Positions 27,129 to 58,731 of a DNA stretch of 64,000 bases are shown one piece after another (the stretch's first letter is position 1; the number at the start of each line of letters is the position of its first letter). The position numbers were made by a program, and so were the translations under genes. The notes beneath the pieces were generated by a model. It was given only the letters and a program-made list of their open reading frames with translations. It was not told where the DNA came from and searched no databases. This DNA is from Mycobacterium intracellulare ATCC 13950. GTDB lineage: Bacteria > Actinomycetota > Actinomycetes > Mycobacteriales > Mycobacteriaceae. The stretch spans positions 1,674,001-1,738,000 of the forward strand of contig NC_016946.1 in NCBI RefSeq assembly GCF_000277125.1, read 5' to 3'.

Positions 27129-27248
27129 CGTTGATCCGGCCTTTCTCCGCCGATACGGTTACCCATACAGTAGGCAATACGATTGATACGCTGTATAAGT
27201 TAGCAAGGATACGCTGCCTGCGAAACTACCCAGGTGAAAGAGAGAATC
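27129..27248. promoter_or_regulatory. Divergent promoter region upstream of crotonase operon and MIRU array
   Basis: This AT-richer stretch separates the minus-strand crotonase/ligase operon from the plus-strand MIRU array and thioesterase. It contains the 19-bp palindrome at 27154-27172 and several TANNNT-like hexamers (for example TATAAG at 27194). No coding frame of interest is present. Confidence 0.55.
27154..27172. promoter_or_regulatory. Candidate operator (19-bp palindrome family), site 1
   Basis: TACGGTTA-CCC-ATACAGTA matches 13 of 16 arm positions of the perfect palindrome at 44399-44417. It lies 26 bases before the crotonase start at 27128 and 77 bases before the first repeat-encoded ATG at 27249, so it could control both directions. 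Confidence 0.6.
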
Positions 27249-27446
27249 ATGGCCCGCGCCGACGACGATGCAGAGCGTAAGCGATGAGGAGGAGTGGCGC
27301 CGATGGTCGCGCCGACGACGATGCAGAGCGTAAGCGATGAGGAGGAGTGGCGCCGATGGTCGCGCCGACGACGATGCAGAGCGTAAGCGATGAGGAGGAG
27401 TGGCGCCGATGGTCGCGCCGACGACGATGCAGAGCGTAAGCGATGA
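27249..27446 (+). other. Chain of four translationally coupled mini-ORFs in MIRU array 1
   Basis: Mini-ORF 1 (27249-27287) reads MARADDDAERKR and has AAAGAGA upstream. Mini-ORFs 2-4 (27284-27340, 27337-27393, 27390-27446) each read MRRSGADGRADDDAERKR. Every stop overlaps the next start as ATGA, and the last stop overlaps the ATG of the thioesterase at 27443. Because 57-base ORFs overlap by four, the period is exactly 53. Whether the peptides accumulate is unknown; a coupling role is an inference. Confidence 0.5.
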
Positions 27447-27478
27447 GGAGGAGTGGCGCCGATGGTCGCGCCGACGAC
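27249..27478 (+). repeat. MIRU tandem array 1 (53-bp unit, four copies plus a partial fifth)
   Basis: Units begin with ATGG at 27249, 27303, 27356, 27409 and 27462. The first is 54 bases (an extra base near its start), the next three are identical at 53, and the fifth breaks off after 17 bases at 27478. The shared core GCCGACGACGATGCAGAGCG followed by GATGAGGAGGAGTGGCGCC is the mycobacterial interspersed repetitive unit known from M. tuberculosis. Identical copies suggest recent duplication or homogenisation, so copy number is likely to vary between strains. The array lies between a divergent promoter and the thioesterase gene. Confidence 0.93.
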
Positions 27479-28126
27479 AACGCCAGATTCGGCGAGGCGC
27501 CGCTTGACCAGACCGTGGCCGCCGCCGCCGCCATGCGCCGCCTGAGCTCGCTGCTGGTGTCGCTGGAACATCCGCACCCGGCGGTGGATGCCATGTTGGA
27601 GAAGTTCACCGAGTGGGAGCGCGAGTTGTCGGCCGCCGCGCCGGCGGACAACTCACCGCGCATCGGCGAACTGCCCGACGATCCCCGGCGCGTCTACCTC
27701 AATCACGCCACCGACATCGGCGCCTACAACCCGTGTTTCCCCGAGTACCGGTTCACCGAATTCGATGCCGAGAAGGCAACGGGAGGAGTCGAATTCCCGG
27801 TGATCTACGAAGGGCCACCGGGACTGGTGCACGGCGGATTCCTGGGCGTCTTCTTCGACTGCGTGATCCAGCACCACAATTGCGTCACCGGCCTTTCCGG
27901 CAAAACCCGGTCCTTGGCCGTGACGTTCCGCAGACCGACACCGGTGTTGACGGAGCTGCGATTCGACATCGCGCGCTCGGAAGGCGAACGGGGTATCACG
28001 TCGACCGCGCGACTGTGGCTCGACGACGAAGTGCTGTGTACGGGCGAGGTCAACACGTTGGCGTCACGGCCCGAGAAGCTTGCCGGATCGCGGTTCGGCA
28101 GGCGCCGAAAGGAGTCCGACAAATGA
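27443..28126 (+). CDS. Hotdog-fold (PaaI-like) thioesterase
   Basis: The 227-residue product contains GLVHGGFLGVFFDCV at about 132, the central helix of hotdog thioesterases, and the strand SLAVTFRRPTPV, so it probably hydrolyses an acyl-CoA. The start is placed at the ATG inside the last MIRU copy, so the first ~14 residues (MRRSGADGRADDNA) are repeat-derived. A downstream ATG at 27533 would give a protein without them. It overlaps the following crotonase by ATGA, and so probably shares its mRNA. Confidence 0.82.
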   Translation: MRRSGADGRADDNARFGEAPLDQTVAAAAAMRRLSSLLVSLEHPHPAVDAMLEKFTEWERELSAAAPADNSPRIGELPDDPRRVYLNHATDIGAYNPCFPEYRFTEFDAEKATGGVEFPVIYEGPPGLVHGGFLGVFFDCVIQHHNCVTGLSGKTRSLAVTFRRPTPVLTELRFDIARSEGERGITSTARLWLDDEVLCTGEVNTLASRPEKLAGSRFGRRRKESDK

Positions 28127-29019
28127 CCGCTTCGAGCACCTCTGACGATCGCGTGCTCTTCGACATCGATCACGACCGGCGCATCGCGACGGTCACGCTG
28201 AACAATCCCGAACAGCGGAACTCCTATGACGCCAGCATGCGCGAGGCCGTCGCCCGTTGCCTGGACCGGGTGGCCGATGACGACGACCTCACGGTGGTGT
28301 TGTTGCGCGGAGCCGAGGGAGTCTTCTCCACCGGGGCCGACATGAACAATGCGTACGGCTGGTACGGCGACAAGGTCAAGGCGTCCGACGATGCGGCAGC
28401 CAAGCGTCGACCGAGTCAGCGTCGACGACTTGCCGTGGACCGCAAGTCTTTTGGCTTCTATCACAATTTCATGGGTTTTCCCAAGGTCACGGTGGGGGAG
28501 ATCGCCGGCTACGCGCTGGGTGGCGGCTTCGAGATGGCCCTGATGACCGACATCTCCGTCATCGCGCGGGACACCAAGATCGGCATGCCGGCAACCCGCT
28601 TCCTGGGCCCCGCGCTGGGCAGCTTGCACATGTTCTTCCACCGGCTCGGCCCGGTGCTGGCGCGACGCCTGCTGTTGACCGGTGACATCATCGAGGCGGG
28701 CGCGATCGAACATCTCGGAATCTTCACGGACACCTGCGATCCCGGCGCGGTGACCGCCCGGGCGCGCTACTGGGCCGAGAAGGCGGCGAAGATGCCGGCC
28801 GACGGGGTCGTCATCGCCAAGGAGGCGTTCCGGCTTGTCGAGCAGAGCCAGGCGTATCAGGGTGAGGAGGTCGCCAGCTACCTGTTCCACGCCTTCGGCA
28901 CCAACCTGCAATTCGGGCCGGGCGAATTCAACTTCGTCAAGACCCGCGCCCAGCACGGCGCCAGGGAGGCCTTCCGGCTACGCGACGAGCACTTCCACGT
29001 GCCCGAACCCGAGGCGTGA
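28123..29019 (+). CDS. Enoyl-CoA hydratase-related protein (crotonase family)
   Basis: This 298-residue crotonase is longer than usual, with an Arg/Lys-rich insertion (AAKRRPSQRRRLA at about 90) after the first oxyanion segment FSTGADMNNAYG and a second segment GYALGGGFEMAL. Insertions at that place occur in crotonases acting on large or cyclic substrates, including ring-cleaving members. It starts at an ATG overlapping the thioesterase stop. The two form a short operon that ends before the convergent TetR gene. Confidence 0.9.
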   Translation: MTASSTSDDRVLFDIDHDRRIATVTLNNPEQRNSYDASMREAVARCLDRVADDDDLTVVLLRGAEGVFSTGADMNNAYGWYGDKVKASDDAAAKRRPSQRRRLAVDRKSFGFYHNFMGFPKVTVGEIAGYALGGGFEMALMTDISVIARDTKIGMPATRFLGPALGSLHMFFHRLGPVLARRLLLTGDIIEAGAIEHLGIFTDTCDPGAVTARARYWAEKAAKMPADGVVIAKEAFRLVEQSQAYQGEEVASYLFHAFGTNLQFGPGEFNFVKTRAQHGAREAFRLRDEHFHVPEPEA

Positions 29020-29037: not shown

Positions 29038-29823
29038 TCAGCGATTCGCCGGCGCCTTGGACCGACCTCGCGCGGTCGACGACTTGCGCTGGCGGCTCGC
29101 CCCCGCCTTGCCTTTGGCTGCGTTGCTCTCGTCGATCAGCCTGCTGGCGTGATCGAGGATGCAGGTGAGGCCGTACTCGAAATTGGTCTCGTCCGGGGCG
29201 CCGATGCGGTGCCCGATTCGGGTGACTTGGGAAAGGAGCGGGGTCTTTTCGGGGTCGATGGCAACGGCGTCCTCGATGGCGCGGGGTCCGATATCCGACG
29301 ACTGGTTTTTTTCGTACAGCCGTTGCAGCACCACTGATCCGCGGACGTGAACCGAAACCGCCGAATAGGTGTCGAACGCGTCCTCCGGGGACAAGCCGGC
29401 CTCGACCAGATTGGAAACTGCCTTTTCCATCTCCTGTGCGCCCATCCGTGCCGCTTTCGGAGACAGTGCCGCGCGAATCAGAATCAGGTCGCACAGAATT
29501 GGGTTGCCCATGAACGTCTTACGCATCAAGCGCGCGTGGTTGCGCAGGGTTTCCCGCCAGTCGCTGGCTTCGACATAGGGGGTGGCGAACACGTACTTGC
29601 TCAGGGCGCGGTCAGTCATCGCGTTGAGCAGGTCGTCCTTCTTGCGGAAGTACCAGTAGATGCTCGTCACACCCACGCCGAGATGTTTGCCGAGCAGCGG
29701 CATGCTCAGGTTGTCGATCGACACCTCCTCGGCGAGTTCGAATGCGCCGCTGATGATGTCGTCGGGATTGATGGACCCGCGTTCGCGTCGCTGACGCTTA
29801 TCGGCGGTTGCCTGTTTTGCCAC
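29038..29823 (-). CDS. TetR-family transcriptional repressor
   Basis: The 261-residue regulator has a helix-turn-helix at about 20-65 (SMPLLGKHLGVGVTSIYWYF, KKDDLLNAM) and a C-terminal ligand domain, with a basic tail (RQRKSSTARGRSK). GTG 29823 is chosen because GGAGGT lies seven bases upstream; an ATG at 29838 lacks one. It is divergent from the SDR at 30031. It is the only DNA-binding regulator inside the 20-60 kb catabolic block and is therefore the best candidate for its local regulator. The inducer would be an acyl-CoA or the substrate itself. Confidence 0.9.
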   Translation of the reverse strand: MAKQATADKRQRRERGSINPDDIISGAFELAEEVSIDNLSMPLLGKHLGVGVTSIYWYFRKKDDLLNAMTDRALSKYVFATPYVEASDWRETLRNHARLMRKTFMGNPILCDLILIRAALSPKAARMGAQEMEKAVSNLVEAGLSPEDAFDTYSAVSVHVRGSVVLQRLYEKNQSSDIGPRAIEDAVAIDPEKTPLLSQVTRIGHRIGAPDETNFEYGLTCILDHASRLIDESNAAKGKAGASRQRKSSTARGRSKAPANR

Positions 29824-29950: not shown

Positions 29951-29969
29951 TACTGTAATACCTATCGTA
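29951..29969. promoter_or_regulatory. Candidate operator (19-bp palindrome family), site 2
   Basis: TACTGTAA-TAC-CTATCGTA has a perfect left arm and five of eight right-arm positions of the 44399-44417 palindrome (13 of 16). It is 61 bases upstream of the SDR gene at 30031 and in the same gap as the TetR gene. Confidence 0.55.
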
Positions 29970-30030
29970 GGCTTTTTGGTAAATCGGCTGGACAGGCGAA
30001 AATGGCCAGGTTAGAGCTGCGGGTCAAGCA

Positions 30031-30828
30031 ATGGATCTAGGGCTGGCAAATGCCGCCGCGGTGGTGGTCGGCGGTAGCCGCGGCATGGGTTTGGCCACCG
30101 CGCGCTGCCTTGCCGACGAGGGGGCCCGGGTAGCGGTCGTCGGGCGCAGCCGTGACGCGCTGGATTCCGCGGTGACCGATCTCACGCAACGGGGTAGCCC
30201 GGACGCCCTCGGGCTCGTCGCCGACATCGGCGACGACGCCGCCGTCGGCACGGCTTTCGGTGAGCTTTCCCAGCGCTGGGGCGGCGAACTCAACGCTCTG
30301 GTCATCACGGTGGGGCCGGGCGCCGCGGGTACCTTCGAGGATTTGACCGACGACCAATGGCGTCAGTCGGTTGAAGACGGGGTGCTGGGCATGGTGCGCT
30401 GTGTGCGGGCGGCGCTACCGCTGCTGCGTAAGGCGCAGTGGGCGCGGATCGTGAACTTCTCGGCGCACTCGACTCAGCGACAAAGTGTCATGCTGCCCGC
30501 GTACACGGCGGCGAAATCGATGCTGACGAGCGTATCGAAGAACCTGTCCCTGCTGCTGGCCAAGGACGAGATCTTGGTCAACGTGGTATCGCCGGGCAGC
30601 ATCGCATCGGAATCACTGGTCGGCTGGGCGAATTCGGTCGGCGTCGACGGCCATGATCCCTATGCCCTGATGGAGGCCATCGGCAAGCATTTCGGTCATC
30701 CCGCGCACATGCCACGGGCGGGCCTCCCCGAAGAAATCGGCCCGGTCGCAGCGTTTCTCGCCTCGCGCCGCAACTCCTACATGACCGGAGCCAACATCAA
30801 CGTCGACGGCGGTTCGGACTTCACCTGA
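30031..30828 (+). CDS. Short-chain dehydrogenase/reductase
   Basis: A 265-residue SDR with VGGSRGMGLATAR at about 13, the catalytic serine region NFSAHST and YTAAK, and the tail TGANINVDGG typical of the family. The oxidised alcohol is unknown. The ATG at 30031 begins shortly after the divergent promoter that carries two candidate operators. The DapA-like gene follows after 52 bases with its own good ribosome site, so both probably share one transcript. Confidence 0.9.
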   Translation: MDLGLANAAAVVVGGSRGMGLATARCLADEGARVAVVGRSRDALDSAVTDLTQRGSPDALGLVADIGDDAAVGTAFGELSQRWGGELNALVITVGPGAAGTFEDLTDDQWRQSVEDGVLGMVRCVRAALPLLRKAQWARIVNFSAHSTQRQSVMLPAYTAAKSMLTSVSKNLSLLLAKDEILVNVVSPGSIASESLVGWANSVGVDGHDPYALMEAIGKHFGHPAHMPRAGLPEEIGPVAAFLASRRNSYMTGANINVDGGSDFT

Positions 30829-30880
30829 CTTCCCTGACCGTGGGTCGAAGAAATCGATTGGCAGACAGAAGGAGTCGACT

Positions 30881-31897
30881 GTGGCTACGGCAGCAGAGGC
30901 ACGCGCGTGGGCGCCCGGCGCATTGCGGGGGATCGGTGACTCCCTCTACACCCCGTTCTGCGGGACCGACGGCGACGACATCGACTGGGACGCCTACCGG
31001 ACACTGGTGCGCTACTGCGTCGGTGATCTCGGGCACCCGATGTTGTGGTGCACCAGCGGCATTGCCGAATTCTGGTCGCTGACCCTCGACGAGCGGAAAC
31101 GCCTGCTGGAGGTTGCGGTAGAGGAGGCGCGCAGCATCAATCCCGGTGTGGTGGTGCAGGCCTGCACGGCGGCGATGTCGGCGAAGGACTGTTTGGATCT
31201 GACCCTGCACGCCCAGGAAGCGGGCGCCGACATCGTCTACATCCAGACGCCGATGATGGAGGCCCACGGCGGCGAAGGCGTGCTCCGCTTTTTCCAATAC
31301 GTGGCTGCGCGCACGAATATCGCTCTGGGCATGTTCAATTCGCCGTCCTCGGGCTACGTGTTGACGCCGGCCGAGAGCGCACGCATCTACCACGAGGTGC
31401 CCGCGGTGTGCGCCACCAAGGAGGGCGCCTTCCTGCCGGCGGCCAGCCGCATGCTTCATCAGCTGGCGCCCGGTCTGGCCGTGTGGGAATGCGACAAAAC
31501 GGTGTACCGGGCGGGGTGGCTGCGCGACGGGATCGTGTGCCCGGCGCAGCTGGGTACCTCGGGCTACCTGTTCGAGACGCCCGAGCGGCGATTGTTCTCC
31601 GAGTATTGGGATTTGGTGCAGAGCGACAAGCTCGTCGAGGCCATGGACTACGCCCGCGAATCCGGGTTGGATCAGTTCGACCTCGACGTCGGGTCGTGGT
31701 GGACGTGCTATCCGGGGCGCGCGGAATACTTCACCCACTGGGGCGGCGCGTTCAAGTACGCCGCGTCGCTGCTGGGGTTGCCCATCGGCGCGTATCCACA
31801 TTCCCGCCCGCCGCAGGCCGAATTACCCGCGGAGGCGAAGGCCCAGATCGAGCACGCCTACCAGCGCCTGGGTTTGATCCAAACGGTGTTGCAGTAG
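30881..31897 (+). CDS. DapA-like aldolase/lyase (dihydrodipicolinate synthase family)
   Basis: This 338-residue TIM-barrel protein aligns with the DapA/N-acetylneuraminate lyase family: the Schiff-base lysine is K180 in CATKEGA and the Thr/Ser pocket is CTSGIAEF at 57-64. The catalytic Tyr of true dihydrodipicolinate synthases is replaced by Phe152 in MFNSPSSG, so a different aldol or retro-aldol reaction is likely. The GTG start has AGAAGGAG upstream. With the SDR before it, it may cleave or dehydrate a ring-derived keto acid. A hairpin follows its stop. Confidence 0.86.
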   Translation: MATAAEARAWAPGALRGIGDSLYTPFCGTDGDDIDWDAYRTLVRYCVGDLGHPMLWCTSGIAEFWSLTLDERKRLLEVAVEEARSINPGVVVQACTAAMSAKDCLDLTLHAQEAGADIVYIQTPMMEAHGGEGVLRFFQYVAARTNIALGMFNSPSSGYVLTPAESARIYHEVPAVCATKEGAFLPAASRMLHQLAPGLAVWECDKTVYRAGWLRDGIVCPAQLGTSGYLFETPERRLFSEYWDLVQSDKLVEAMDYARESGLDQFDLDVGSWWTCYPGRAEYFTHWGGAFKYAASLLGLPIGAYPHSRPPQAELPAEAKAQIEHAYQRLGLIQTVLQ

Positions 31898-31959: not shown

Positions 31960-32199
31960 CTACTGCTGTTCGGCCCGCTCGCGCTGCTCGTACGCCTTGG
32001 CCTTGCCGCGGGCCTTATCGGCGGCGGCTTCCTTTTTCCCGGCGCTGCGCTGCGCATCCGCCTTGTCCTGTTGGGCCTTGCCCTCTTCGATCAGGTCGTT
32101 GTGGCCGATGATGATGCCGATGACCTGCTTGGTCCTCCCGAGGACGTCTTCCACGATGCCCCGGACGAGTTCGACCGGTCCGCTCTTGGTGTCAACCAT
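31960..32199 (-). CDS. CsbD-like small stress protein
   Basis: The 79-residue, highly charged protein has GRTKQVIG followed by NDLIEEGKAQQDKADAQ, similar to the CsbD family of stress-induced small proteins; the C-terminal half is a Lys/Ala/Glu helix. ATG 32199 is preceded by AAGGAGAG, which rules out the longer frame. CsbD proteins have no firmly known biochemical function. It seems unrelated to the surrounding catabolic genes and shares a divergent gap with the crotonase at 32463. Confidence 0.75.
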   Translation of the reverse strand: MVDTKSGPVELVRGIVEDVLGRTKQVIGIIIGHNDLIEEGKAQQDKADAQRSAGKKEAAADKARGKAKAYEQRERAEQQ

Positions 32200-32399
32200 T
32201 GCCTCTCCTTCCCCCATGTGATGATCGGCTCCTCTACGCGTTCCCGATCCCGGGGTCGACGCAAACATGGGTCAGCGTGTCGATCGCCACATCCCGTCGC
32301 CGCCCCTCGGCCTAGGGGGTGATCACGGCGCCAAGCGGACGCCCAAAATCGCTGTTTAGTCGCCGTTCACGGGGGTGTGGGCGCAGTTGTGGAATGCGG

Positions 32400-32418
32400 T
32401 ACCGATAGGTATACAGTA
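32400..32418. promoter_or_regulatory. Candidate operator (19-bp palindrome family), site 3
   Basis: TACCGATA-GGT-ATACAGTA matches 12 of 16 arm positions of the 44399-44417 palindrome. It lies 44 bases upstream of the crotonase at 32463, the first gene of the 32-39 kb operon. On its own it is weak; its position is what makes it notable. Confidence 0.5.
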
Positions 32419-32462: not shown

Positions 32463-33287
32463 ATGGGCGCCGCCGACCGTGTGGTCACCGATGAGGCGGT
32501 GCTGTATGAAACCACCGAAACCGGTGTTGCGGTCGTGACCTTCAACCGTCCCGAGCGCCTCAACGCCTGGGGCCCCGACATCTCGAGGGGCTTCTACGCA
32601 AGCATCGACCGCGCCGAAGCCGACCCCGCGGTGCGGGTGATCGTGTTGACCGGTGCCGGCAAGGGATTCTGCGCGGGCGCGGACCTGGGTGGCGCGGGAT
32701 CCATCGACGAAAAACTCGGCGACGGCGACACCGACGTCACCAAGCTGGTCGGCGACCGCCACCCGCATTTCCTCACCGAGCTGCGCAAGCCGATCATCGC
32801 CGCGGTCAACGGCGCCTGCGTCGGGATCGGCCTGACGCACGCCCTGATGTGTGACGTCCGGTTCGCGGCCGCCGGAGCCAAATTCGCCACCGCGTTCACC
32901 CGGCGGGGCTTGATCGCCGAGTACGGCATCTCCTGGATCCTGCCGCGGCTCGCCGGCTGGGGCGCGGCGATGGACTTGCTGTTGAGCGGGCGCACGTTCT
33001 TCGCCGAGGAGGCCGCGCAACTCGGACTGGTCAAGGACGTCGTCGCGCCCGAACAACTGATGTCGCGCGCCCTGGCATACGCCGACGACATCGCGCGCAA
33101 TTGTTCACCGGCGTCGCTGGCGGTCATCAAGCGGCAGGCCTACGGCGACGCGCTGCGCGATGTCGCCGATGTCAGCGCCCGCGCCGAAACACTCATGCAC
33201 GAGTCGCTGCTGCGGCCCGACGTTGTCGAAGGCATCACCAGCTTCCTGGAGAAGCGGCCACCGCGGTTCCCGCCATTGGCCACCTAA
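32463..33287 (+). CDS. Enoyl-CoA hydratase/isomerase (crotonase family)
   Basis: This 274-residue crotonase has TFNRPERLNAW, FCAGADLGGAG at about 72 and NGACVGIGLTHAL, and a C-terminal FLEKRPPRF tail typical of enoyl-CoA hydratases. It heads a plus-strand operon of six further genes up to 39232. It is the fifth crotonase in the locus, in keeping with a long multi-step degradation. The start is ATG 32463, after GAGGGGACG. Confidence 0.9.
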   Translation: MGAADRVVTDEAVLYETTETGVAVVTFNRPERLNAWGPDISRGFYASIDRAEADPAVRVIVLTGAGKGFCAGADLGGAGSIDEKLGDGDTDVTKLVGDRHPHFLTELRKPIIAAVNGACVGIGLTHALMCDVRFAAAGAKFATAFTRRGLIAEYGISWILPRLAGWGAAMDLLLSGRTFFAEEAAQLGLVKDVVAPEQLMSRALAYADDIARNCSPASLAVIKRQAYGDALRDVADVSARAETLMHESLLRPDVVEGITSFLEKRPPRFPPLAT

Positions 33288-33306
33288 CCAGCCGGAAAGG
33301 AACATC

Positions 33307-34509
33307 ATGACCCCCCTGAACTATCGAGCGATCGACGTCGACAATCACTACTACGAACCGTTGGATTCGTTTACCCGCCATTTGGACAAGCGGTTCAAAC
33401 GGCGCGGTGTCCAGATCGTCAGCGACGGCAAACGCAGCTGGGCCTTGATGGGCGACCGCATCAACCACTTCATCCCGAACGTCACCTTCGACCCGATCAT
33501 CGTGCCGGGCTGCCTCGACCTGTTGTTCCGCGGCGAGATCCCGGAAGGCGTCGACCCGGCCTCGTTGATGAAGGTCGAGCGGCTCGCCGAGCACCCGGAG
33601 TACCAGAACCGCGACGCCCGGATCGCGGTGATGGACACCCAGGACATCGAGACGGTGTTCATGCTGCCGACGTTCGCGTGCGGAGTTGAAGAGGCGCTCA
33701 AACACGACATCGAGGCGACGATGGCCTCGGTGCACGCATTCAACCTGTGGCTCGACGAGGACTGGGGCTTCGACCGTCCGGACCATCGCATCATCTCCGC
33801 CCCGATCATCTCGCTGGCCGATCCGGTCAAAGCCGTCGAAGAGGTCGAGTTCGTGTTGGCGCGCGGCGCCAAGCTGGTCCTGGTGCGGCCCGCGCCGGTG
33901 CCCGGGCTGGTCAAGCCGCGGTCGCTGGGCGATCCCAGCCACGATCCGGTGTGGGCCAGGCTGGCCGAAGCGGGAGTGCCGGTGGGATTCCACCTCTCCG
34001 ACAGCGGTTACCTGGCGATCGCAGCGCTGTGGGGCGGGAAATCGACTTTCGAGGGCTTCGGCGCGAAGGATCCGCTGGATCAGGTGCTCCTGGACGACCG
34101 GGCCATTCACGACACCATGGCCTCGATGATCGTGCACGGCGTGTTCACCCGCCACCCGAAACTCAAGGCGGTCAGCATCGAAAACGGGTCCTACTTCGTG
34201 CATCGGCTGATCAAGCGCCTCAAGAAGGCGGCCAACACCCAGCCCCAGTATTTCCCCGAGGACCCGGTGGAGCAGCTGCGCAACAACGTGTGGATCGCCC
34301 CCTACTACGAGGACGATCTGCCGGAGCTGGCCGAGGTCATCGGCGTCGACAAGATCCTGTTCGGTTCCGACTGGCCGCACGGGGAAGGACTCGCATCGCC
34401 GGTGTCGTTCGCCGAGGAGCTGAAGGGCTTCAGCGAGTCCGATGTTCGAAAGATCATGCGAGACAACGCCCTAGACCTCCTAGGCGTCCAAGTCGGTTCG
34501 GCTGCTTGA
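33307..34509 (+). CDS. Amidohydrolase-family metal-dependent hydrolase/decarboxylase
   Basis: The 400-residue TIM-barrel protein has the metal motif IDVDNHYYEP at 9-18, later VGFHLSD and ILFGSDWPHGEG at about 353, as in the amidohydrolase-2 family (including ACMSD-type decarboxylases). Actinobacterial members often accompany acyl-CoA dehydrogenases in ring degradation, hydrolysing or decarboxylating an intermediate. It is a paralogue of the protein encoded at 39245-40486, sharing FIPN-TF and FGSD-PH-EGLA. A good ribosome site (GGAAAGGA) precedes the ATG. Confidence 0.87.
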   Translation: MTPLNYRAIDVDNHYYEPLDSFTRHLDKRFKRRGVQIVSDGKRSWALMGDRINHFIPNVTFDPIIVPGCLDLLFRGEIPEGVDPASLMKVERLAEHPEYQNRDARIAVMDTQDIETVFMLPTFACGVEEALKHDIEATMASVHAFNLWLDEDWGFDRPDHRIISAPIISLADPVKAVEEVEFVLARGAKLVLVRPAPVPGLVKPRSLGDPSHDPVWARLAEAGVPVGFHLSDSGYLAIAALWGGKSTFEGFGAKDPLDQVLLDDRAIHDTMASMIVHGVFTRHPKLKAVSIENGSYFVHRLIKRLKKAANTQPQYFPEDPVEQLRNNVWIAPYYEDDLPELAEVIGVDKILFGSDWPHGEGLASPVSFAEELKGFSESDVRKIMRDNALDLLGVQVGSAA

Positions 34510-50127: not shown

Positions 50128-50135
50128 CGTGCCTC

Positions 50136-50756: not shown

Positions 50757-51382
50757 CGGGCTCCCTTGTCCCAGGCCTGCAGCAGATCGTCGGTGCTGGT
50801 GACGGTGGCCAGCAGCGACAGCGTGTTGGCGATCATCGCTGCACCATAGTCGGCGGGGATGCCGGCCACCGCGTCGCGGGGCAGGACCACCCGGTAGGCG
50901 GCGTTGACCGCGTCCATGACGAGGTTGGGAATCGCGATGTTGAGCGAAACGCCCACCACGACAATGGTGGATACGCCGAGATTGCGTAACACCGAGTCCA
51001 GATCGGTGCCGCCCATCGGGCCCACGCCGTGCCAGCGGCGCAACACCAAATCGGAAGGCTCCGGCCCTAATTCGGGCAGCAACTCCGCACCCGGTGTGCC
51101 GGGCGTGATGTCGACCCGGTTGCCGCCGCCCATCGCGAAGATCTTCGCGTTGTGATTGGAGCCGAGCCCGTCGGGCCGCCGTTGCACCAGGCAATGCACA
51201 ACGCGCACCCCGGCCGCCCGGGCCGCGGGCAGCAGGCGCGCGATGTTGGGCAGCGCCTCGCGGCGAGCCTCCTCGGCGAGCATGGCCAGACCGGCATCGG
51301 GACCCATCACCGCGCCCTGGCACTCCTGGGTGACGATCGCGGTGTGCTCGGGTGCGGCCAGTCCGGCCAGCGGGTCCGTCAT
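50753..51382 (-). CDS. Isochorismatase-like hydrolase fold protein lacking the catalytic Cys
   Basis: The 209-residue product follows the cysteine-hydrolase (isochorismatase/nicotinamidase) pattern: AIVTQECQGAV at 15-25, DLVLRRWHGVGPMGGTDLD at 111-129, VVVGVSLNIAIPNLVMDA from 141. The usual Asp-Lys-Cys triad is altered: Glu20 replaces Asp, Arg stands at the Lys place, and Ala150 stands where Cys is expected. It may be a non-hydrolytic binding protein or use other chemistry. It overlaps the Rieske and thioesterase genes by four bases each. Confidence 0.82.
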   Translation of the reverse strand: MTDPLAGLAAPEHTAIVTQECQGAVMGPDAGLAMLAEEARREALPNIARLLPAARAAGVRVVHCLVQRRPDGLGSNHNAKIFAMGGGNRVDITPGTPGAELLPELGPEPSDLVLRRWHGVGPMGGTDLDSVLRNLGVSTIVVVGVSLNIAIPNLVMDAVNAAYRVVLPRDAVAGIPADYGAAMIANTLSLLATVTSTDDLLQAWDKGAR

Positions 51383-52386
51383 GCGGGGGCGCCCACCGGC
51401 GCGACGTCATAGAACTGCGTCGCCCACTTCCGCAGTGCCATATAGCCTTTCGCATCGACTTTGGACAGCGGCGGACGCTCTACGTACTTTTGGTAGCGCC
51501 AGATCTGCAGGTCGTCGAACACGGTGGACAAGAACTGCTTCTCGATGACCTCCCGGAGCTTGCCCTCCGGCACGGGGGAGTCATCGCCGGGGATCCGCGG
51601 CCACCAGATCGAGTAGAACAGGTCCGAACACTCGTCGTCGACCGGTGTGCACGTGAAGATCAGCCGGTGATTCTGCGCGCCCTCGAAAACGCTGATCGCC
51701 CCGCCGAGGCCGAACAGGTGGCTGTGGAACCGCAACGCGAGGTCCTCGGGGTCGTCGCTGTTCGCATCAGGCCAGCCGGCGATGAACTGCCACTCGTGGT
51801 CGACGATCTTCCAGTCGAGGACTCGGGGTGTCACCGTGGCGTGGTGCACGTACTCGAAATGGGCGCTGTCGGGGGCGTTCTCGGCCACGATCTGCGGATG
51901 CACCGGCTCGCGCTCCGCGCGCCGGGAAAACTCCGGATATGCCCGGTAGTAGGCCGCCGGATCGGTCTCGAATTGGGGGAACTTCCTGAAGATGTCCGGC
52001 ATTTCCCACTGCGGTTCCTTGCCGTCCGGGTGGTGCCAGATGAACACGCAGTCGTATTGCTCGCGGACGGGATACACCTTCAGGTGTAGCGCGCGGTTGG
52101 GTCGGTCCGGCTGATAGGGGATGTATTTGTTGCAGCCGTCCGGGCCCCAGCGCCAGCCGTGGAAGGGGCACTCGACGCAGTCGCCGACCACCTTGCCGCC
52201 GTGGCCGATGTGGGCGCCGAGGTGTTTGCAGTGCGCTTCCAGGACGTGCAGCTCGCCCGACTCGTCGCGGTAGGCCACCAGGTCCTCGCCGAAATAGTGC
52301 AGCGGCCGGACCTCGCCGACGGGAAACTCCGGGGACCAGCCGACCATGAACCAGCCGGTGACCTTCCAGGTGAAGGGGACTTTCAC
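51379..52386 (-). CDS. Rieske non-haem iron oxygenase (KshA-like)
   Basis: The 335-residue oxygenase has the Rieske cluster ligands Cys53, His55, Cys73 and His76 (HCKH and CPFHGW) and mononuclear iron ligands in ENAPDSAHFEYVHH (Asn170, Asp173, His176, His181). GWFMVGWSPEF and RPLHYFGEDLVAYRD resemble 3-ketosteroid 9-alpha-hydroxylase oxygenases, so a polycyclic substrate is plausible. GTG 52386 is chosen because GGGAGG lies seven bases upstream; an ATG at 52422 lies in the palindrome and has no ribosome site. No reductase is nearby. Confidence 0.9.
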   Translation of the reverse strand: MKVPFTWKVTGWFMVGWSPEFPVGEVRPLHYFGEDLVAYRDESGELHVLEAHCKHLGAHIGHGGKVVGDCVECPFHGWRWGPDGCNKYIPYQPDRPNRALHLKVYPVREQYDCVFIWHHPDGKEPQWEMPDIFRKFPQFETDPAAYYRAYPEFSRRAEREPVHPQIVAENAPDSAHFEYVHHATVTPRVLDWKIVDHEWQFIAGWPDANSDDPEDLALRFHSHLFGLGGAISVFEGAQNHRLIFTCTPVDDECSDLFYSIWWPRIPGDDSPVPEGKLREVIEKQFLSTVFDDLQIWRYQKYVERPPLSKVDAKGYMALRKWATQFYDVAPVGAPA

Positions 52387-52410: not shown

Positions 52411-52429
52411 TACTAAATCCATTACAGTA
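52411..52429. promoter_or_regulatory. Candidate operator (19-bp palindrome family), site 5
   Basis: TACTAAAT-CCA-TTACAGTA has a perfect right arm and five of eight left-arm positions of the 44399-44417 palindrome. It is centred between the Rieske start (24 bases away) and the SnoaL-type gene (41 bases away), so it could control both. Confidence 0.6.
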
Positions 52430-52470
52430 TAGATTTCAGCAGTCCGGCCCGCGCGCGGCAAGGGAGTGAG

Positions 52471-52929
52471 ATGACGACAGCGGCTGACGAGCTGGAAGCC
52501 ATCCGACAGCTCAAGGCGCGCTACTGCCGTTTCCTGGACACCAAAGACCTCGAGTCCTGGCGCGGAGTGTTCACCGCCGACGTCGTGGTGACGCTCGACA
52601 TGGCGGTGTCCACCGCCGGTGCGGACCCCCAGACCGCGCCGCCGATCGAGGGCGTCGAGAACTTCGCACCGATGGTGATGGGCGGCCTCGAGGGCGTGGC
52701 CACCAAACATCACTGCCACACCCCCGAGATCACGCTCACCTCGGCCACCACCGCGACCGGCATCTGGGCGATGGAGGACCTGCTGATCTTCGGTGACGGC
52801 CGCGAGTTGTACGGCGCCGGGCACTACCACGAGACCTACGAGAAGCGGGACGGTCGTTGGCAGATCAAGTCCTTGCACCTGACGCGAACCATCTTGAGGA
52901 TGACCGGCGGTGACGATGGCCGACGCTGA
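52471..52929 (+). CDS. SnoaL-like (NTF2-fold) protein
   Basis: The 152-residue protein has the NTF2/SnoaL pattern: IRQLKARYCRFLDTKDLESW at the N-terminus, a histidine-rich HHCHTPEITL and a C-terminal GRWQIKSLHLTR strand. Members include hydratases, isomerases and cyclases acting on ring compounds. It is the first gene of a five-gene plus-strand operon that continues with the flavin monooxygenase, with which it overlaps by 20 bases. Confidence 0.85.
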   Translation: MTTAADELEAIRQLKARYCRFLDTKDLESWRGVFTADVVVTLDMAVSTAGADPQTAPPIEGVENFAPMVMGGLEGVATKHHCHTPEITLTSATTATGIWAMEDLLIFGDGRELYGAGHYHETYEKRDGRWQIKSLHLTRTILRMTGGDDGRR

Positions 52930-54538
52930 TCCCTCGTTCGACGTTCTCGTCATCGGCGCCGGATTCTCCGGGCTGTACATGCTGCACCGGCTGCGGGAAC
53001 TCGGGCTGCGCACCCGTGTGCTGGAGATGGCCGAAAACGTGGGCGGCACCTGGCTTTTCAACAGATACCCCGGCGCGCGGTGCGACATCGAGAGCATCGA
53101 ATACTCCTACAGCTTCTCCGAAGAGATTCAGCAGGAGTGGGTGTGGACCGAGTCGATGCCGGCCCAGCCCGAGATCGAGGCCTACCTGAACTTCGTGGCC
53201 GACCGGCTCGACCTCCGCCGTGACATCCAATTCGGCACCAAGGTCGTCGCGATGACGTTCGACGACGAAGCCGCGACGTGGTCGGTGCGCACCGAAACCG
53301 GCGAAACCTTCCGCGTTCCCTTCGTCGTCGCCGCCTCCGGCATCCTGTCGGTGCCGTTGGAACCCGACATCCCCGGGATGGGCACGTTCGCCGGGCTGTC
53401 GCTGTTCACCAGCCGCTGGCCCGAGGGCGGCGTCGACCTCACCGGCAAGCGCGTCGGCGTCATCGGTACCGGCTCGACCGGCGTCCAGCTCATCCCCGTC
53501 GTCGCCCGAGAAGCCCTGCAGCTGTCGGTATTTCAGCGCTCACCCGCCTACACCCTGCCCTGGCGGGTGCATCGCTTCGCCTCGGGCGAGCTCGACGACA
53601 TGAAGGCCCGGTATGGCGAGATCCGTGCGGCCCAGCGCGCCCACCCGATCGGCGCGGCCCGGCTGAGCGCCTTCTCCGTCCTGCTCGAAATGCTCGGCAG
53701 GCCGCCGCTGAAGTCGGCGACGCGCGAAGAACAACTGAGCGCCATCGAGGAGCACGGCGTCATGGGCGCATTGAACTGGGGCGACATCTTCTTCGACATC
53801 GAAGCCAACCGGATGGCCGCCAAGCTGTACGGCGAGGCGGTGGCGCGGATCGTCAAGGACCCGGAGACCGCCGCCTCCCTGGTGCCGGTGCATCCGTTCG
53901 CGTGTAAGCGACCGATCATCGACCAGGGCTACTACGAGACCTTCAACCGCGACAACGTCACCCTGGTCGACCTGCGCAAGTCGCCGATCCGCGAGGTCAC
54001 GCCCGCCGGCATCCGCACCGAGGACCGGCTGCACGAGCTCGACGTCATCGTCTACGCCACCGGGTTCGACGCCATGACCGGCGCGCTCAGCCGGATCGAC
54101 GTCCGCGGCCGCGGCGGCGTCTCGCTCGGCGAATTCTGGGCCACCGAAGGCCCGCTGTCGTATCTGGGCCTGGCGGTCGCCGGGTTCCCCAACCTCTTCA
54201 CGGTTCAGGGCCCCGGCAGCCCGAGCGCCGCGACGAACTTCGTCGCCGCCCTCGAGCAGCACGTGGAGTGGATCGGCGACTGCCTCGCGTACCTGCGCGC
54301 CCACGACATCCGCACCATCGAGGCATTGAGCACCGCTCAGCAGGAGTGGATCGACCACGCCACGGCGCTTGTTGCGCCGACGGTGCTGGTGCATCCGTCG
54401 TGCAACTCCTGGTACAACGGTGGCAACGTGCCCGGCAAGAAACGGATGTACATGGGCTATACCGGCGGAATCCCCGAATACCGGCGGCGCTGTGACGAGA
54501 TCGCGGCAAGCGGATACACCGGGTTCAAACTGGCGTAG
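52910..54538 (+). CDS. Flavin-containing (Baeyer-Villiger-type) monooxygenase
   Basis: The 542-residue FAD/NADPH enzyme has GAGFSGL (about 17), GGTWLFNRYPGARCDIES and GTGSTGVQ. The Baeyer-Villiger fingerprint F-x-G-x-x-x-H-x-x-x-W-P appears as FAGLSLFTSRWP at about 160 with Phe in place of His. It might oxygenate a ketone to an ester or lactone, which the alpha/beta hydrolase encoded next could open. GTG 52910 has GAGGA nine bases upstream; ATG 52916 is the alternative. Confidence 0.9.
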   Translation: MTMADADPSFDVLVIGAGFSGLYMLHRLRELGLRTRVLEMAENVGGTWLFNRYPGARCDIESIEYSYSFSEEIQQEWVWTESMPAQPEIEAYLNFVADRLDLRRDIQFGTKVVAMTFDDEAATWSVRTETGETFRVPFVVAASGILSVPLEPDIPGMGTFAGLSLFTSRWPEGGVDLTGKRVGVIGTGSTGVQLIPVVAREALQLSVFQRSPAYTLPWRVHRFASGELDDMKARYGEIRAAQRAHPIGAARLSAFSVLLEMLGRPPLKSATREEQLSAIEEHGVMGALNWGDIFFDIEANRMAAKLYGEAVARIVKDPETAASLVPVHPFACKRPIIDQGYYETFNRDNVTLVDLRKSPIREVTPAGIRTEDRLHELDVIVYATGFDAMTGALSRIDVRGRGGVSLGEFWATEGPLSYLGLAVAGFPNLFTVQGPGSPSAATNFVAALEQHVEWIGDCLAYLRAHDIRTIEALSTAQQEWIDHATALVAPTVLVHPSCNSWYNGGNVPGKKRMYMGYTGGIPEYRRRCDEIAASGYTGFKLA

Positions 54539-54556
54539 CTGTTGAAGGTGAGCGAC

Positions 54557-55678
54557 ATGGCGAAGGCATTGAACGGGCTGAGCCTGGCCAAAGACGCGGC
54601 CCGGGAACTCGGAATGCTGGTGCCGCGCACCGTGGCCGGCCTGCAGGAGTCCACTAATTGGTCCCCGTTGTCACCGCGCGGTGCGCGCCAGTTCGGTGAG
54701 GTCATGCTCGATGAGCTTGTGCTGAGCGGCTTTTCGCTGCTCGGTGGGAGCCCCGCGGCGATGCGCCCGCTCGATGCCTGCATTGCGGCGGCCGAAGAGC
54801 TCTCGGCGCTCGGCATCGACCGCGCGCATGGCGACCCGAAACCGTTGCGGGAAGCCTCGATACGTCGGCACCGCATCGCCGGCCTGGCATACGAACGGGT
54901 GACTTTCGAACACGATCCCGCGCTGCCGCCGAGCTTGGAGGCCGACGGGTTGGGCGGCCCGGCACGGGCGGTGGTGCACGTGTGCCGGCACCGCGACGGC
55001 CCCCGACCCTGGCTGGTATGGGTGCACGGCGCCGGCCAGGGCGGCACCGAAGACCTGCTGATGTCCGGCATCGGCCGGATACATCGCAAGCTGGGCTTCA
55101 ACATCGCGCTGCCGGTGCAGCCGGGTCACGGGTGCCGGCGCCGGCAATGGCCGGCGTACCCCGACATGGATCCGCTCGGCAACGTCGCGGGAATGATGCG
55201 GGTCGTCTCGGAGGTGCGCGCCGTGGTGCGCTGGGCACAGGCGCAAGGCACCGCCGTTGTGGTGGCAGGGATTTCGATGGGCAGCCCCGTGGCCGCACTG
55301 GTGTCGCATCTGGAAAAGCAGATCGATGCGGTGGCCCTGTACACGCCCATCCTGGGACTCAACGCGATGATCGCGCGGCACCTTCAGCGTTGGGGGCCCT
55401 CGCGCGACGGATTTCGCGAGCTGCTGGAATCTCCCGTCGTCACCCAGCTGACCTCGGTGATCGACCCCCTGGCCGTCACGCCGTCGCCGCCGCCGGAACG
55501 CCGGCTGATCGTCGGGGCGTGGCACGACCGGATGGCGATGCGCGAGCCCGCCAACGCGTTGCAGGAACGGTGGGGCGGCCAGTTGTACTGGTACGACGGC
55601 AGCCACGTCGGGCACATCTTCTCCCGGCGCGTGCAGCGCATCACCGACCGATTCCTGCGCGACGCGGTGCCCGGCTGA
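54557..55678 (+). CDS. Alpha/beta hydrolase
   Basis: The 373-residue hydrolase has the oxyanion-hole region VWVHGAGQGG at about 154, the nucleophile elbow GISMGSP at about 240, and the likely catalytic His in HVGHIF at about 355. ATG 54557 is preferred over TTG 54542. It may cleave an ester, lactone or ring-opened diketone generated by the monooxygenase before it in the operon. There is no signal peptide, so it is probably cytoplasmic. Confidence 0.86.
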   Translation: MAKALNGLSLAKDAARELGMLVPRTVAGLQESTNWSPLSPRGARQFGEVMLDELVLSGFSLLGGSPAAMRPLDACIAAAEELSALGIDRAHGDPKPLREASIRRHRIAGLAYERVTFEHDPALPPSLEADGLGGPARAVVHVCRHRDGPRPWLVWVHGAGQGGTEDLLMSGIGRIHRKLGFNIALPVQPGHGCRRRQWPAYPDMDPLGNVAGMMRVVSEVRAVVRWAQAQGTAVVVAGISMGSPVAALVSHLEKQIDAVALYTPILGLNAMIARHLQRWGPSRDGFRELLESPVVTQLTSVIDPLAVTPSPPPERRLIVGAWHDRMAMREPANALQERWGGQLYWYDGSHVGHIFSRRVQRITDRFLRDAVPG

Positions 55679-56058
55679 TGGCGCCCACCTGGACGGCGCG
55701 CACCGTCGTCGAACTCTACAACCTGGTCGTGTGGAACGAACGCAACATCGAGCTGGCCGAGGAGTTGTTGGGCGACACCGTCATTCGGCACGAGGTCGGT
55801 TCCTCCCGCACGCTGACCCACGCCGAAGCGGTCCAGCGGGTGGTGGACATGTGGCAGGCGGCCGAATCGTTGCACTTCGACCTCAACGTCGTCATCGAGG
55901 GCGACGACGGCGAACACGTGGCGATCGTCTACGACTCGACGATCAAAACCAAGGACGGCACCGAAACCAACATCGCCAGCATCGAGGTGTTCCGCGTGGT
56001 CGATGGCAAAATTACCGAGGTTTGGAACTGCGGCTACCAGCAAGGGGTTTGGAATTGA
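55678..56058 (+). CDS. SnoaL-like (NTF2-fold) protein
   Basis: This 126-residue protein (VVELYNLVVWNERNIELAEELL, then HEVGSSRTLTHAEAVQRV and VWNCGYQQGVWN) has the SnoaL/NTF2-like fold. Such small proteins act as isomerases, hydratases or cyclases. It starts at an ATG overlapping the hydrolase stop by one base (TGATG). With the protein encoded at 52471 it makes two NTF2-fold proteins in this operon, perhaps acting on ring intermediates. Confidence 0.82.
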   Translation: MAPTWTARTVVELYNLVVWNERNIELAEELLGDTVIRHEVGSSRTLTHAEAVQRVVDMWQAAESLHFDLNVVIEGDDGEHVAIVYDSTIKTKDGTETNIASIEVFRVVDGKITEVWNCGYQQGVWN

Positions 56059-57119
56059 GTGATCGTACGCTTGATGAACTGGGCTTCTATCTGCTGGCCG
56101 GCGCGGGCGGTGAGGGCCCGGCGACCTTGATGGACGAGGCCCGCCGTGGCGAGGAACTGGGCTTCGGCACCGGATTCATCTCCGAGCGCTGGAACGTCAA
56201 GGAGGCGTCGTCTCTGGTCGGGGCGGCGTGCGCGGTGACCACTCGCATGCAGATCGCCACCGCCGCAACCAATCACAACACCCGCCACCCGCTCATCACG
56301 GGATCGTGGGCGACCACCATGCATCGTCTCTCCGGCGGCCGGTTCACCCTGGGCGTCGGCCGGGGCATCGCAGCGATCTACGGGGCCTTCGGCATCCCGG
56401 CGGTGACGACGGCGCAAATGGAGGATTGGGCCCAAGTCATGCGCCGGCTCTGGCACGGCGAGCTGATCTTCAACCACGACGGCCCAATGGGCAAGTACCC
56501 CATCCTTTTTCTCGATCCGGACTTCAACGAAGACATCCGGCTGGCCCTGGTGGCCTTCGGACCCAACACGCTCGCGCTCGGCGGCCGCGTGTTCGACGAC
56601 GTCATTTTGCACACCTACTTCACCCCGGAGACCTTGCAGCGCAGCGTCAAAACCGTGAAGTCCGCCGCGGAGAAGGCGGGCCGCGACCCCGACAGCGTGC
56701 GGGTGTGGTCGTGCTTCGCGACCGTCGGGGACCACCTGCCCGAAGAGCTGCGGCTGAAGAAGACCGTCGCGCGGCTGGCCACTTACCTGCAGGGCTACGG
56801 CGACCTGCTCGTCCGAACCAATGACTGGGATCCCGCTGTGCTGCAGCGGTTCCGCGAAGACCCGGTGGTCACGTCGATCGCGGGCGGGATCGACCACAAG
56901 GGCACGCCCGAACAGATCGAGCACATTGCGACGCTGATTCCCGACGAATGGCTGGAGCCCTCGGCCACCGGGTCCGCCCAACAGTGCGTGGACCGCATCC
57001 GCAAGGAGTTCGACTACGGCGCCGACGCGGTCATCATGCACGGCGCCACGCCCGACGAGCTCGAGCCGATCGTCGCGGCGTATCGCGAATCGGTAGATGC
57101 AATCTCGCGGCAGTCTTAA
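56055..57119 (+). CDS. LLM-class (F420-dependent type) oxidoreductase
   Basis: The 354-residue protein has the luciferase-like barrel: ARRGEELGFGTGFISERW near residue 30, TNHNTRHPLITG near 74 and SGGRFTLGVGRG near 94. Mycobacterial members commonly use F420. The start appears to be TTG 56055, which overlaps the preceding stop and has AAGGGG eight bases upstream; no in-frame ATG or GTG lies nearby. It may reduce or oxidise a keto or alcohol intermediate. Its last bases overlap the convergent carboxyltransferase. Confidence 0.86.
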   Translation: MSDRTLDELGFYLLAGAGGEGPATLMDEARRGEELGFGTGFISERWNVKEASSLVGAACAVTTRMQIATAATNHNTRHPLITGSWATTMHRLSGGRFTLGVGRGIAAIYGAFGIPAVTTAQMEDWAQVMRRLWHGELIFNHDGPMGKYPILFLDPDFNEDIRLALVAFGPNTLALGGRVFDDVILHTYFTPETLQRSVKTVKSAAEKAGRDPDSVRVWSCFATVGDHLPEELRLKKTVARLATYLQGYGDLLVRTNDWDPAVLQRFREDPVVTSIAGGIDHKGTPEQIEHIATLIPDEWLEPSATGSAQQCVDRIRKEFDYGADAVIMHGATPDELEPIVAAYRESVDAISRQS

Positions 57120-58612
57120 GGCAGGATGACCGTCCGGGACACCGGCTCCGCGGCGGCCTGCCTGCTCGACAGGCCACGCTTCAAGGACGCGAGCAGAGCA
57201 TCGCGCGTCTCGCGGGGATCGATGAGCTCGTCGAACCCCATGTGTTCGGCCGATCGATAGGACGCCTCCAGCTCGGCGTTGCGCAGCTTGGCCGAGAGGT
57301 CTTCGCCGGCGTGTGAGGCGCGGCTCAGCGCCGCGGCGCTCATGGCGCCCATCGTCGCGCCGGGGTAGGCGAAGGTCGCGACCTGATGATCGAAACCCAA
57401 CAGCGACATGACCATCGAGCCGAACCCGTACGCCTTACGCAGCGTGAGGTGCAGCTTCAACGTGGTGGCGGCCGTCTGCGCGGCGAACATCCGCGCACCG
57501 GCGCGCAGCACGCCGGCGCGCTCGGATCGGCTGCCGGGCAGCATGCCCGGATTGTCGGCGAGGAACACGATCGGCAGGTGGAAGGAATCCGCCACCATGA
57601 TGAAGTGGGCCGCCTTGTCCGCGGCGTCGGCGTCGATGGAGCCCGCGAGCACCTGGGGCTGATTGGCCACCACCGCGACCGGGTGGCCGCCGAGGTGGGC
57701 GAGTGCGCAGACGATCGCCCTGCCGAACTGGGGCTGCACCTCGAACCAGTCGGCGCTGTCGAAGACCACGTCGAGCACGGCCCGCATGTCGTACACGCGG
57801 CGGTTGTCCCGGGAGACGATGTCGAGCAGCTCCGGCGTCGCCCGCGGGTCGGCGGCCGCACCGGTCGGTTGCGGCGACGGGTACGACCAGGCGCTCGGCG
57901 GGAAGTACGACAGGTAGCGGCGGACGTCGTCGAGCACCGCTTCGTCGTCCTCGGCGACATTGTGGATCACGCCGCTGGGCAAAGCGACGTCCGGCCCGCC
58001 CAGGTCCTCCTTCGAAATGTCTTCTCCGGTCGACTCTTTGACGACGGGGGGACCGGCGGTGAAGATCGCGCCCTGCCGGCTCATGATCCGGAAATCGCAA
58101 ACCGGGGCCACCAGGGCGCCGTGCCCGGCCGAGGGGCCGAGGACGGCGGCGACGGTCGGGACGCGCCCCGAGCACTGCGCCTGCGCCAGCAGGTCGGTCG
58201 GGGTGCGCCCGTAGTGCCCGCCGGTGGGGCGAAAGCCGGCGCCTTCGAGCAGCATGACCAGCGGGATCTTGTCGCGCAGCGCCAGTTCGGCGATGCGGTA
58301 CCGCTTGGAATTGCCGCCGGGACCGATGCTGCCGGCCAGGGTCGTGAAGTCCTCGGCGCCCAGCATCACCGGTGAGCCGTTGATCTCACCGGAGCCCACG
58401 ACCAGCCCGTCGGCCGCGGTCTCACCACCGACGAGGGTGCCGAGCTCACGGAACGTGCCCGGGTCGAGGAGGTACTCGATCCGCGCGCGGGCGTCGAGCT
58501 TGCCCTTGTTGCGGTGCTTGTCGAGCCGCTCCGGCCCGCCCATTTCGAACGCGTGCTGACGGCGGCGCTCGAGATCGTCGAGCGTTTCTCCCCAGTCCTG
58601 GGCTTTCGGCAT
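57116..58612 (-). CDS. Acyl-CoA carboxyltransferase (AccD-like)
   Basis: The 498-residue protein matches the carboxyltransferase beta subunit of acyl-CoA carboxylases: ARARIEYLLDPGTFRELG near 42, LEGAGFRPTGGH near 120 and FLADNPGMLPGSRSER near 350, with a double crotonase-type layout. It would carboxylate, or in reverse decarboxylate, an acyl-CoA such as propionyl- or a branched product. No biotin carboxylase or biotin carrier gene is near, so it needs subunits from elsewhere. It faces the P450 at 58802. Confidence 0.9.
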   Translation of the reverse strand: MPKAQDWGETLDDLERRRQHAFEMGGPERLDKHRNKGKLDARARIEYLLDPGTFRELGTLVGGETAADGLVVGSGEINGSPVMLGAEDFTTLAGSIGPGGNSKRYRIAELALRDKIPLVMLLEGAGFRPTGGHYGRTPTDLLAQAQCSGRVPTVAAVLGPSAGHGALVAPVCDFRIMSRQGAIFTAGPPVVKESTGEDISKEDLGGPDVALPSGVIHNVAEDDEAVLDDVRRYLSYFPPSAWSYPSPQPTGAAADPRATPELLDIVSRDNRRVYDMRAVLDVVFDSADWFEVQPQFGRAIVCALAHLGGHPVAVVANQPQVLAGSIDADAADKAAHFIMVADSFHLPIVFLADNPGMLPGSRSERAGVLRAGARMFAAQTAATTLKLHLTLRKAYGFGSMVMSLLGFDHQVATFAYPGATMGAMSAAALSRASHAGEDLSAKLRNAELEASYRSAEHMGFDELIDPRETRDALLASLKRGLSSRQAAAEPVSRTVILP

Positions 58613-58712
58613 GCCTATGTCCTACCTCATCGAGGATCCGTCGCGCGACGAATCACAGCGTGGCGACCCGCTTGCGGTCACCACGGATTGCGGGGTCACA
58701 TACTGGATTGCT

Positions 58713-58731
58713 TACTGTAAAGTTACCCGCA
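58713..58731. promoter_or_regulatory. Candidate operator (19-bp palindrome family), site 6
   Basis: TACTGTAA-AGT-TACCCGCA has a perfect left arm but only four of eight right-arm positions of the 44399-44417 palindrome; shifting the spacer to two bases gives TTAC on the right. It stands 70 bases upstream of the P450 gene and 100 from the carboxyltransferase gene. Confidence 0.5.

Follow-up and report, generated by a model that had tools for sequence, protein, structure and literature searches.

A proposed TetR regulon marked by a conserved palindrome in a catabolic block of Mycobacterium intracellulare

One palindrome recurs between the divergent operons of a catabolic gene block in Mycobacterium intracellulare ATCC 13950, which raises the question of whether its copies are operators and, if so, of which protein. 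The DNA analyzed, called the window here, is a stretch of 64,000 nucleotides (bases 1674001–1738000 of the 5.40-Mb single-contig genome); positions are counted from its first base, and the catabolic block takes up about 25–60 kb of it. The palindrome has the letters TACTGTAA-N3-TTACAGTA, with the core TACTGTA-N5-TACAGTA and the general form TACNGTA-N5-TACNGTA. It is very likely the operator of a TetR-family regulator encoded within the block (29038–29823, minus strand; gene called tetR here), a dimer of which would hold the block and satellite genes elsewhere in the genome silent until released by a ligand. The best reading that we can propose is a widespread, autoregulated TetR regulon, and our verdict is that it is a real, conserved regulon of an ordinary kind, with a probable regulator and members that can be named.

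Sites in the divergent gaps

A preliminary description of this DNA had listed six sites, and all six are present with the arm scores that it gave. The gaps in which they lie are every divergent gap between 27 and 59 kb in the gene models used here. Operator 1 (TACGGTTACCCATACAGTA, 27154–27172; no strand is assigned to the operators) is located 25 bp before an enoyl-CoA hydratase gene (26307–27128, minus strand), and operator 2 (TACTGTAATACCTATCGTA, 29951–29969) is located between tetR on the minus strand and a short-chain dehydrogenase/reductase (SDR) gene on the plus strand. Operator 3 (TACCGATAGGTATACAGTA, 32400–32418) separates a small gene (31960–32268, minus strand) from a further enoyl-CoA hydratase gene (32463–33287, plus strand). 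Operator 4, the perfect palindrome (44399–44417), stands between a P450 gene (minus strand) and an aldehyde dehydrogenase gene (plus strand), operator 5 (TACTAAATCCATTACAGTA, 52411–52429) between a Rieske gene (minus strand) and a SnoaL-like gene (plus strand), and operator 6 (TACTGGATTGCTTACTGTA, 58701–58719) between a carboxyltransferase gene (minus strand) and another P450 gene (plus strand). For operator 6, the register first given (58713–58731) matches 12 of the 16 arm letters, and the better one at 58701–58719 matches 13 and is retained in relatives.

At least 12 of the 16 arm letters are matched at nine places in the window, against 0.045 expected from a first-order Markov model of the window, so such matches do not arise a few times by chance, as had been supposed. 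At least 13 letters are matched at five places, compared with 0.01 in dinucleotide shuffles. Eight of the nine places fall in the six divergent gaps, which make up 1,114 of the 64,000 bases (1.7%). The argument for function had been built on the distribution over the gaps, and this placement supports it; an equal density elsewhere was looked for by pattern matching and not found. The ninth place (5434–5452, 12/16) overlaps the start of an ecdysteroid-kinase-like open reading frame (ORF; 5440–6579), behind an ABC transporter gene and far from the block.

Conservation and co-occurrence with one TetR

The preliminary description pointed to related mycobacteria as a place to look, and the sites are kept there at orthologous promoters. 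The comparison drew on 1.56 Mb from 80 loci that contain a tetR orthologue and on a set of 21 relatives, 18 of them with at least 40 kb read and three (G087, G016 and G073) with 20 kb. Across the 80 loci, the palindrome occurs at 150 places with up to three mismatches, vs. zero or one for each of 12 permuted palindromes. Operator 2 is found in 76 of the 80 loci and in 20 of the 21 relatives; it is missing in L017, L041 and L091, and L029 has just 21 upstream bases. When 17 tetR–SDR gaps are aligned, a conserved block holds the site and the remaining gap is variable, with L091 as the exception. The counterpart of operator 1, on the far side of tetR, is present in 63 of the 80 loci, and two of the 17 misses (L080 and L082) are without the DNA. 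Among the relatives, the promoter of operator 3 has a site in 20 of 21 and the Rieske/SnoaL/monooxygenase/esterase promoter of operator 5 in 15 of 21. For the carboxyltransferase promoter of operator 6, the count is 17 among the 18 relatives for which 40 kb or more were read; a site with zero or one mismatch adjoins the orthologue of the P450 gene at operator 4 (P450_43161) in 14 of 21. The thiolase and CoA-transferase genes sit downstream of the P450 gene in the window; in relatives with split operons (G065, G004, G085 and others), they have sites of their own. In our judgement, this is the most telling evidence for a regulon.

One spacing of the arms is enriched. In 834 kb of tetR-proximal DNA, TACTGTA-N5-TACAGTA is found at 19, 38, 83 and 142 places with zero, up to one, up to two and up to three mismatches, and 100 permuted-arm palindromes in the same DNA give means of 0.05, 0.40 and 6.69 (maxima 3, 4 and 25) for up to one, two and three mismatches. 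Spacers of 0–4 and 6–11 yield no perfect place and at most one place with up to one mismatch; spacer 10 yields 18 places with up to two. At up to one mismatch, enrichment in this DNA is at spacer 5 only. The arm letters are identical to those of the LexA (SOS) box of Escherichia coli, TACTGTA/TACAGTA, in which the spacer is 6 rather than 5; the targets here are catabolic, and the LexA-like spacer 6 gives 0, 0 and 1 places in the 834 kb with zero, up to one and up to two mismatches.

The TetR encoded at 29038–29823 carries TetR_N (PF00440, 45.2 bits, cut-off 24) and TetR_C_1, and its residues 36–74, helix-turn-helix included, do not vary among 13 sequences. By this protein, the closest named loci are those of a Mycobacterium metagenome-assembled genome (MAG) and Mycobacterium sp. 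WUMAC-067 (97 and 98% identity), followed by M. colombiense and other strains. Matches at E 1e-30 or better occur in 118 of 148 genomes of the genus; five of these (G050, G055, G088, G092 and G147) have a distant paralogue only, so that 113 are counted as TetR-bearing and 35 as without it. The palindrome with up to one mismatch is present in 103 of the 113 vs. 3 of the 35. The reversed control has no such link to TetR (47 of 113 and 11 of 35), and total places for palindrome vs. control are 292 vs. 76 in the 113 and 4 vs. 13 in the 35.

Five candidate sites lie outside the window, before a CYP142-type P450 gene, a paralogue of a cluster P450, an enoyl-CoA hydratase gene, acyl-CoA dehydrogenase genes and an alcohol dehydrogenase/thiolase pair; their contig positions are 132356, 770616, 1742035, 2203330 and 3606283. 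Three sites match at least 13 of the 16 letters, and they stand 25 bp before the hydratase gene, 35 bp before the CYP142-type gene (675 bits to CYP142A3) and 52 bp before another P450 gene, the product of which is 67% identical to the cluster P450 at 45953–47158 (distances measured to the longest-ORF start). In TetR-bearing genomes, 7 of 30 loci carry the CYP142-type site, precisely those with at least 84% identity; it is found in none of 24 loci of genomes without TetR, which is no fair test of dependence on TetR because the homologues there are more distant (at most 79% identity). Of 22 hydratase loci, 7 have the site with up to one mismatch, and these all belong to the nine with at least 85% identity. 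A site at contig position 2203330 separates a zinc alcohol dehydrogenase gene from a thiolase gene. TetR-bearing genomes have it in 21 of 27 loci, vs. one of six TetR-less genomes with a thiolase of at least 85% identity (G054; G003, G126 and G127, three of the 35, were left out on this side), and a weaker thiolase homologue in G098 has a match upstream too. In G065, G085 and G004, this thiolase gene adjoins tetR. Just beyond the window, at contig position 1742035, a site stands before two acyl-CoA dehydrogenase genes; it was seen in nine relatives.

Several points weigh against a regulon of this TetR or against the numbers brought for it. In the whole genome, at least 13 of the 16 letters are matched at eight places, five of them in the window, and the reversed pattern gives five in the same scan. 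The looser TACNGTA-N5-TACNGTA with up to two mismatches gives 23 places vs. 104 for its reversed control, and in four of nine genome stretches inspected the site is inside an ORF; as a genome-wide search tool, this looser pattern was rejected as useless. Genome-wide counts thus prove nothing by themselves; it is placement and conservation that carry the case. Column identities of 0.90–0.97 within sites vs. 0.46–0.87 in 30-base flanks are biased upwards within the sites, since these were chosen by match, and the value for 44399 does not describe one orthologous promoter, its rows mixing gene pairs (in G065, G004, G085, G082, G045 and G006, the chosen site is at other genes). The 148 genomes are related and their counts not independent, so the Fisher value for the co-occurrence (p 2.6e-20) is no clean probability. 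Ten of the 113 TetR-bearing genomes are without a site of up to one mismatch (G026, G029 and G064 of these have sites with two or three), and three genomes (G054, G075 and G115) have the palindrome without TetR, the site of G054 standing at a thiolase gene. In addition, G026 and L091 have the TetR and no site with up to three mismatches beside it.

The fixed spacing and the co-occurrence bear on an alternative that had been raised earlier, in which the repeats are only the –10 hexamers (TACAGT/TACTGT) of divergent promoters and no operators. TACAGT is compatible with the mycobacterial –10 hexamer, for which the loose pattern is TANNNT; start codons are close to the sites, and divergent promoters require two –10 boxes. 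However, both arms are enriched and conserved at one fixed spacing, and a second arm at a distance of 12 bp is not known as a promoter element. The near absence of the palindrome from genomes without the TetR is likewise left unexplained. On account of the fixed spacing and the conserved second arm, a pure –10 reading is rejected as extremely improbable, although the arms may still include –10 boxes.

Predicted mechanism and comparison with other regulators

In the proposed regulon, a TetR dimer would sit on TACNGTA-N5-TACNGTA between divergent operons and cover the TACAGT/TACTGT –10-like boxes of both promoters. Since TACAGT is present on both strands of the arms, binding of one dimer could shut off the two promoters. 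The six operon pairs of the block, which is oxidative and of the CoA-thioester type, would be silenced in this way, as would the satellites elsewhere. Binding of a substrate intermediate to the C-terminal domain would free all promoters together, that of tetR included. This accords with PMC4482099, in which TetR-family proteins are described as often being ligand-released repressors that bind palindromes. The earlier suggestion of one regulon under one TetR agrees with the placement of the sites, their conservation at orthologous and rearranged promoters, the satellites and the co-occurrence; binding and repression are what we infer.

The same TetR could own the sites and yet activate, or it could have its main effect on itself and the neighbor. 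Some TetR-family proteins activate, and an activating member is reported from M. smegmatis (PMC4895335). A protein bound at the present sites, near start codons, would be expected to block, and conserved sites are found at many promoters other than that of tetR, so both versions appear unlikely.

It appears very unlikely that the palindrome is the operator of another regulator, for which a second TetR (61062–61718), KstR and the Rv0767c orthologue were considered. The second TetR adjoins the block, but it is present in 25 of 148 genomes, too few to own a palindrome found in 106, and was rejected as owner. Many relatives (G065, G085, G102 and others) have a second TetR of about 50–65% identity within about 25 kb of tetR; in G065, palindromes flank it, and both TetRs may share an operator.

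KstR and KstR2, the TetR repressors of mycobacterial cholesterol catabolism, resemble the present case in the family of the regulator, the palindromic operator, autoregulation and scattered beta-oxidation and P450 genes, whereas the operator letters and the gene block are different. A KstR-type pattern with up to three mismatches does occur at 16 places in the window vs. 4.84 expected. None of the 16 is in the six gaps, and KstR was rejected as owner.

In Mycobacterium sp. VKM Ac-1817D, a related strain, motif X is assigned to G155_05115, an Rv0767c orthologue. This palindrome stands ahead of P450, aldehyde dehydrogenase and SDR operons and has a copy close to its own TetR gene (PMC6593523). 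Motif X is compared here by description, its letters standing in a figure only. The Rv0767c-like locus of the present genome (L287), which we take to be such from its gene order, carries GGACACATGTCC and GGACAACTGTCC, and the window palindrome with up to three mismatches has no place in it. Its two perfect GGACANNTGTCC palindromes (L287:4174–4185 and 4332–4343) have a TetR gene on one side and an aldehyde dehydrogenase gene on the other and are the likely operator of that TetR. They agree with the enrichment of GAC/GTC at Rv0767c sites from chromatin immunoprecipitation (ChIP), at which TAA/TTA is depleted (PMC10312376). The GGACANNTGTCC-type pattern is not enriched in the window (20 vs. 32 expected). 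Rv0767c was rejected as owner, since its likely locus carries a different palindrome and no TACTGTA palindrome, and the present regulon is, with some doubt, taken as separate from motif X. The owner is apparently neither KstR nor Rv0767c.

The best solved match of the TetR at 29038–29823 is TetR class A (E 3.7e-15). The tetracycline repressor (TetR_C_1 group) has the same two Pfam domains and a palindromic operator between divergent genes; unlike it, the present protein has catabolic neighbors and scores 76.7 bits on the NCBIfam TetR equivalog, far below the cut-off of 265. The present operator was not found in the literature searched, from which letters shown only in figures and most subscription papers were absent, so that prior publication is possible.

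A weak third TACNGTA-like unit lies 12 bp past the second arm at three operators (29951–29981, 52411–52441 and 27154–27184), and at 29951 and 52411 it is conserved in slow-growing relatives. In 11 sites, this half-site at +24 is weak, with a mean of 2.55 of 6 letters vs. a background of 1.36 (standard deviation 0.31; top background offset 2.27). We tentatively raise a more elaborate form of the operator, which is possible although rather doubtful: TACNGTA units, each symmetrical in itself, might follow one another every 12 bp, in some cases in three registers, and load more than one dimer. The protein might be a widespread and hitherto undescribed steroid- or terpenoid-type switch beside KstR and KstR2, controlling the P450-, Rieske- and Baeyer–Villiger-rich block and satellites that include a second CYP142-type gene.

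Substrate and gene content

The closest solved relatives are P450terp for the P450 at 58802–60040 and, for the satellite P450, CYP142, chains of which bear the name steroid C26-monooxygenase in the Protein Data Bank. The Rieske protein is closest to KshA (E 6.7e-28), and the product of 52910–54538 to phenylacetone and steroid monooxygenases. These relatives point toward a terpenoid- or steroid-like substrate without proving it, and a cyclic compound of this kind is our guess. The proposed regulon would join about ten operons, scattered and with genes for P450s, hydratases, dehydrogenases and thiolases, under one regulator and one operator. The question of the substrate then becomes a direct one, namely which compound releases the TetR at 29038–29823, and the operator could serve as a genus-wide marker for further pathway genes, such as the CYP142-type gene far from the block.

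The CoA-type enzymes of the block are enoyl-CoA hydratases, acyl-CoA ligases, acyl-CoA dehydrogenases, a thiolase/lipid-transfer protein, a class III CoA-transferase and a carboxyltransferase; the others are three amidohydrolases, three P450s, an aldehyde dehydrogenase, a KshA-like Rieske oxygenase, a Baeyer–Villiger-type monooxygenase and an F420-type luciferase-like oxidoreductase. Downstream of operator 1 are two enoyl-CoA hydratase genes (25396–27128, minus strand; Pfam ECH_1). An ORF without a Pfam match and an enoyl-CoA hydratase-type gene follow on the plus strand (27443–29019, gene starts uncertain), then tetR on the minus strand, which encodes the proposed owner of the operators. SDR and DHDPS-like genes lie downstream of operator 2 (30031–31897, plus strand), and genes for an enoyl-CoA hydratase, two amidohydrolases, an acyl-CoA ligase and two acyl-CoA dehydrogenases lie downstream of operator 3 (32463–39232, plus strand). 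Operator 4 is followed on the minus strand by genes for the P450, the class III CoA-transferase, the thiolase/lipid-transfer protein and an amidohydrolase (39245–44369) and on the plus strand by those for the aldehyde dehydrogenase and a P450 (44460–47158). Downstream of operator 5, the minus strand encodes the KshA-like Rieske oxygenase, an ORF without a Pfam match, an acyl-CoA ligase, a polyketide-cyclase-like protein and an SDR (47159–52350), and the plus strand encodes the SnoaL-like protein, the Baeyer–Villiger-type monooxygenase, an esterase-like protein and the F420-type luciferase-like oxidoreductase (52471–57119). Operator 6 is flanked downstream by the acyl-CoA carboxyltransferase gene (57116–58612, minus strand) and the P450 gene with P450terp as best solved match (58802–60040, plus strand).

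The small gene on the other side of operator 3 (31960–32268, minus strand) matches NCBIfam microaggregate-binding protein 1 above the cut-off, and a homologue adjoins the site in 1 of the 21 relatives at the tblastn threshold used. At 27255–27478, at the start of ORF 27443–28126, a 53-bp unit is repeated in 4.2 copies with no mismatch, each unit containing an AGGAGG-like stretch and an ATG. Its length is reminiscent of MIRU elements, and a change in copy number would change the reading frame because 53 is not divisible by 3. After operator 6, a 24-codon ORF (58731–58805, MPDAPRLK...) overlaps the GTG of the P450 gene. In 15 of 18 regions, its place is the start of a long frame, which by eye resembles a luciferase-like oxidoreductase and of which the window and G046 seem to retain just the initial codons.

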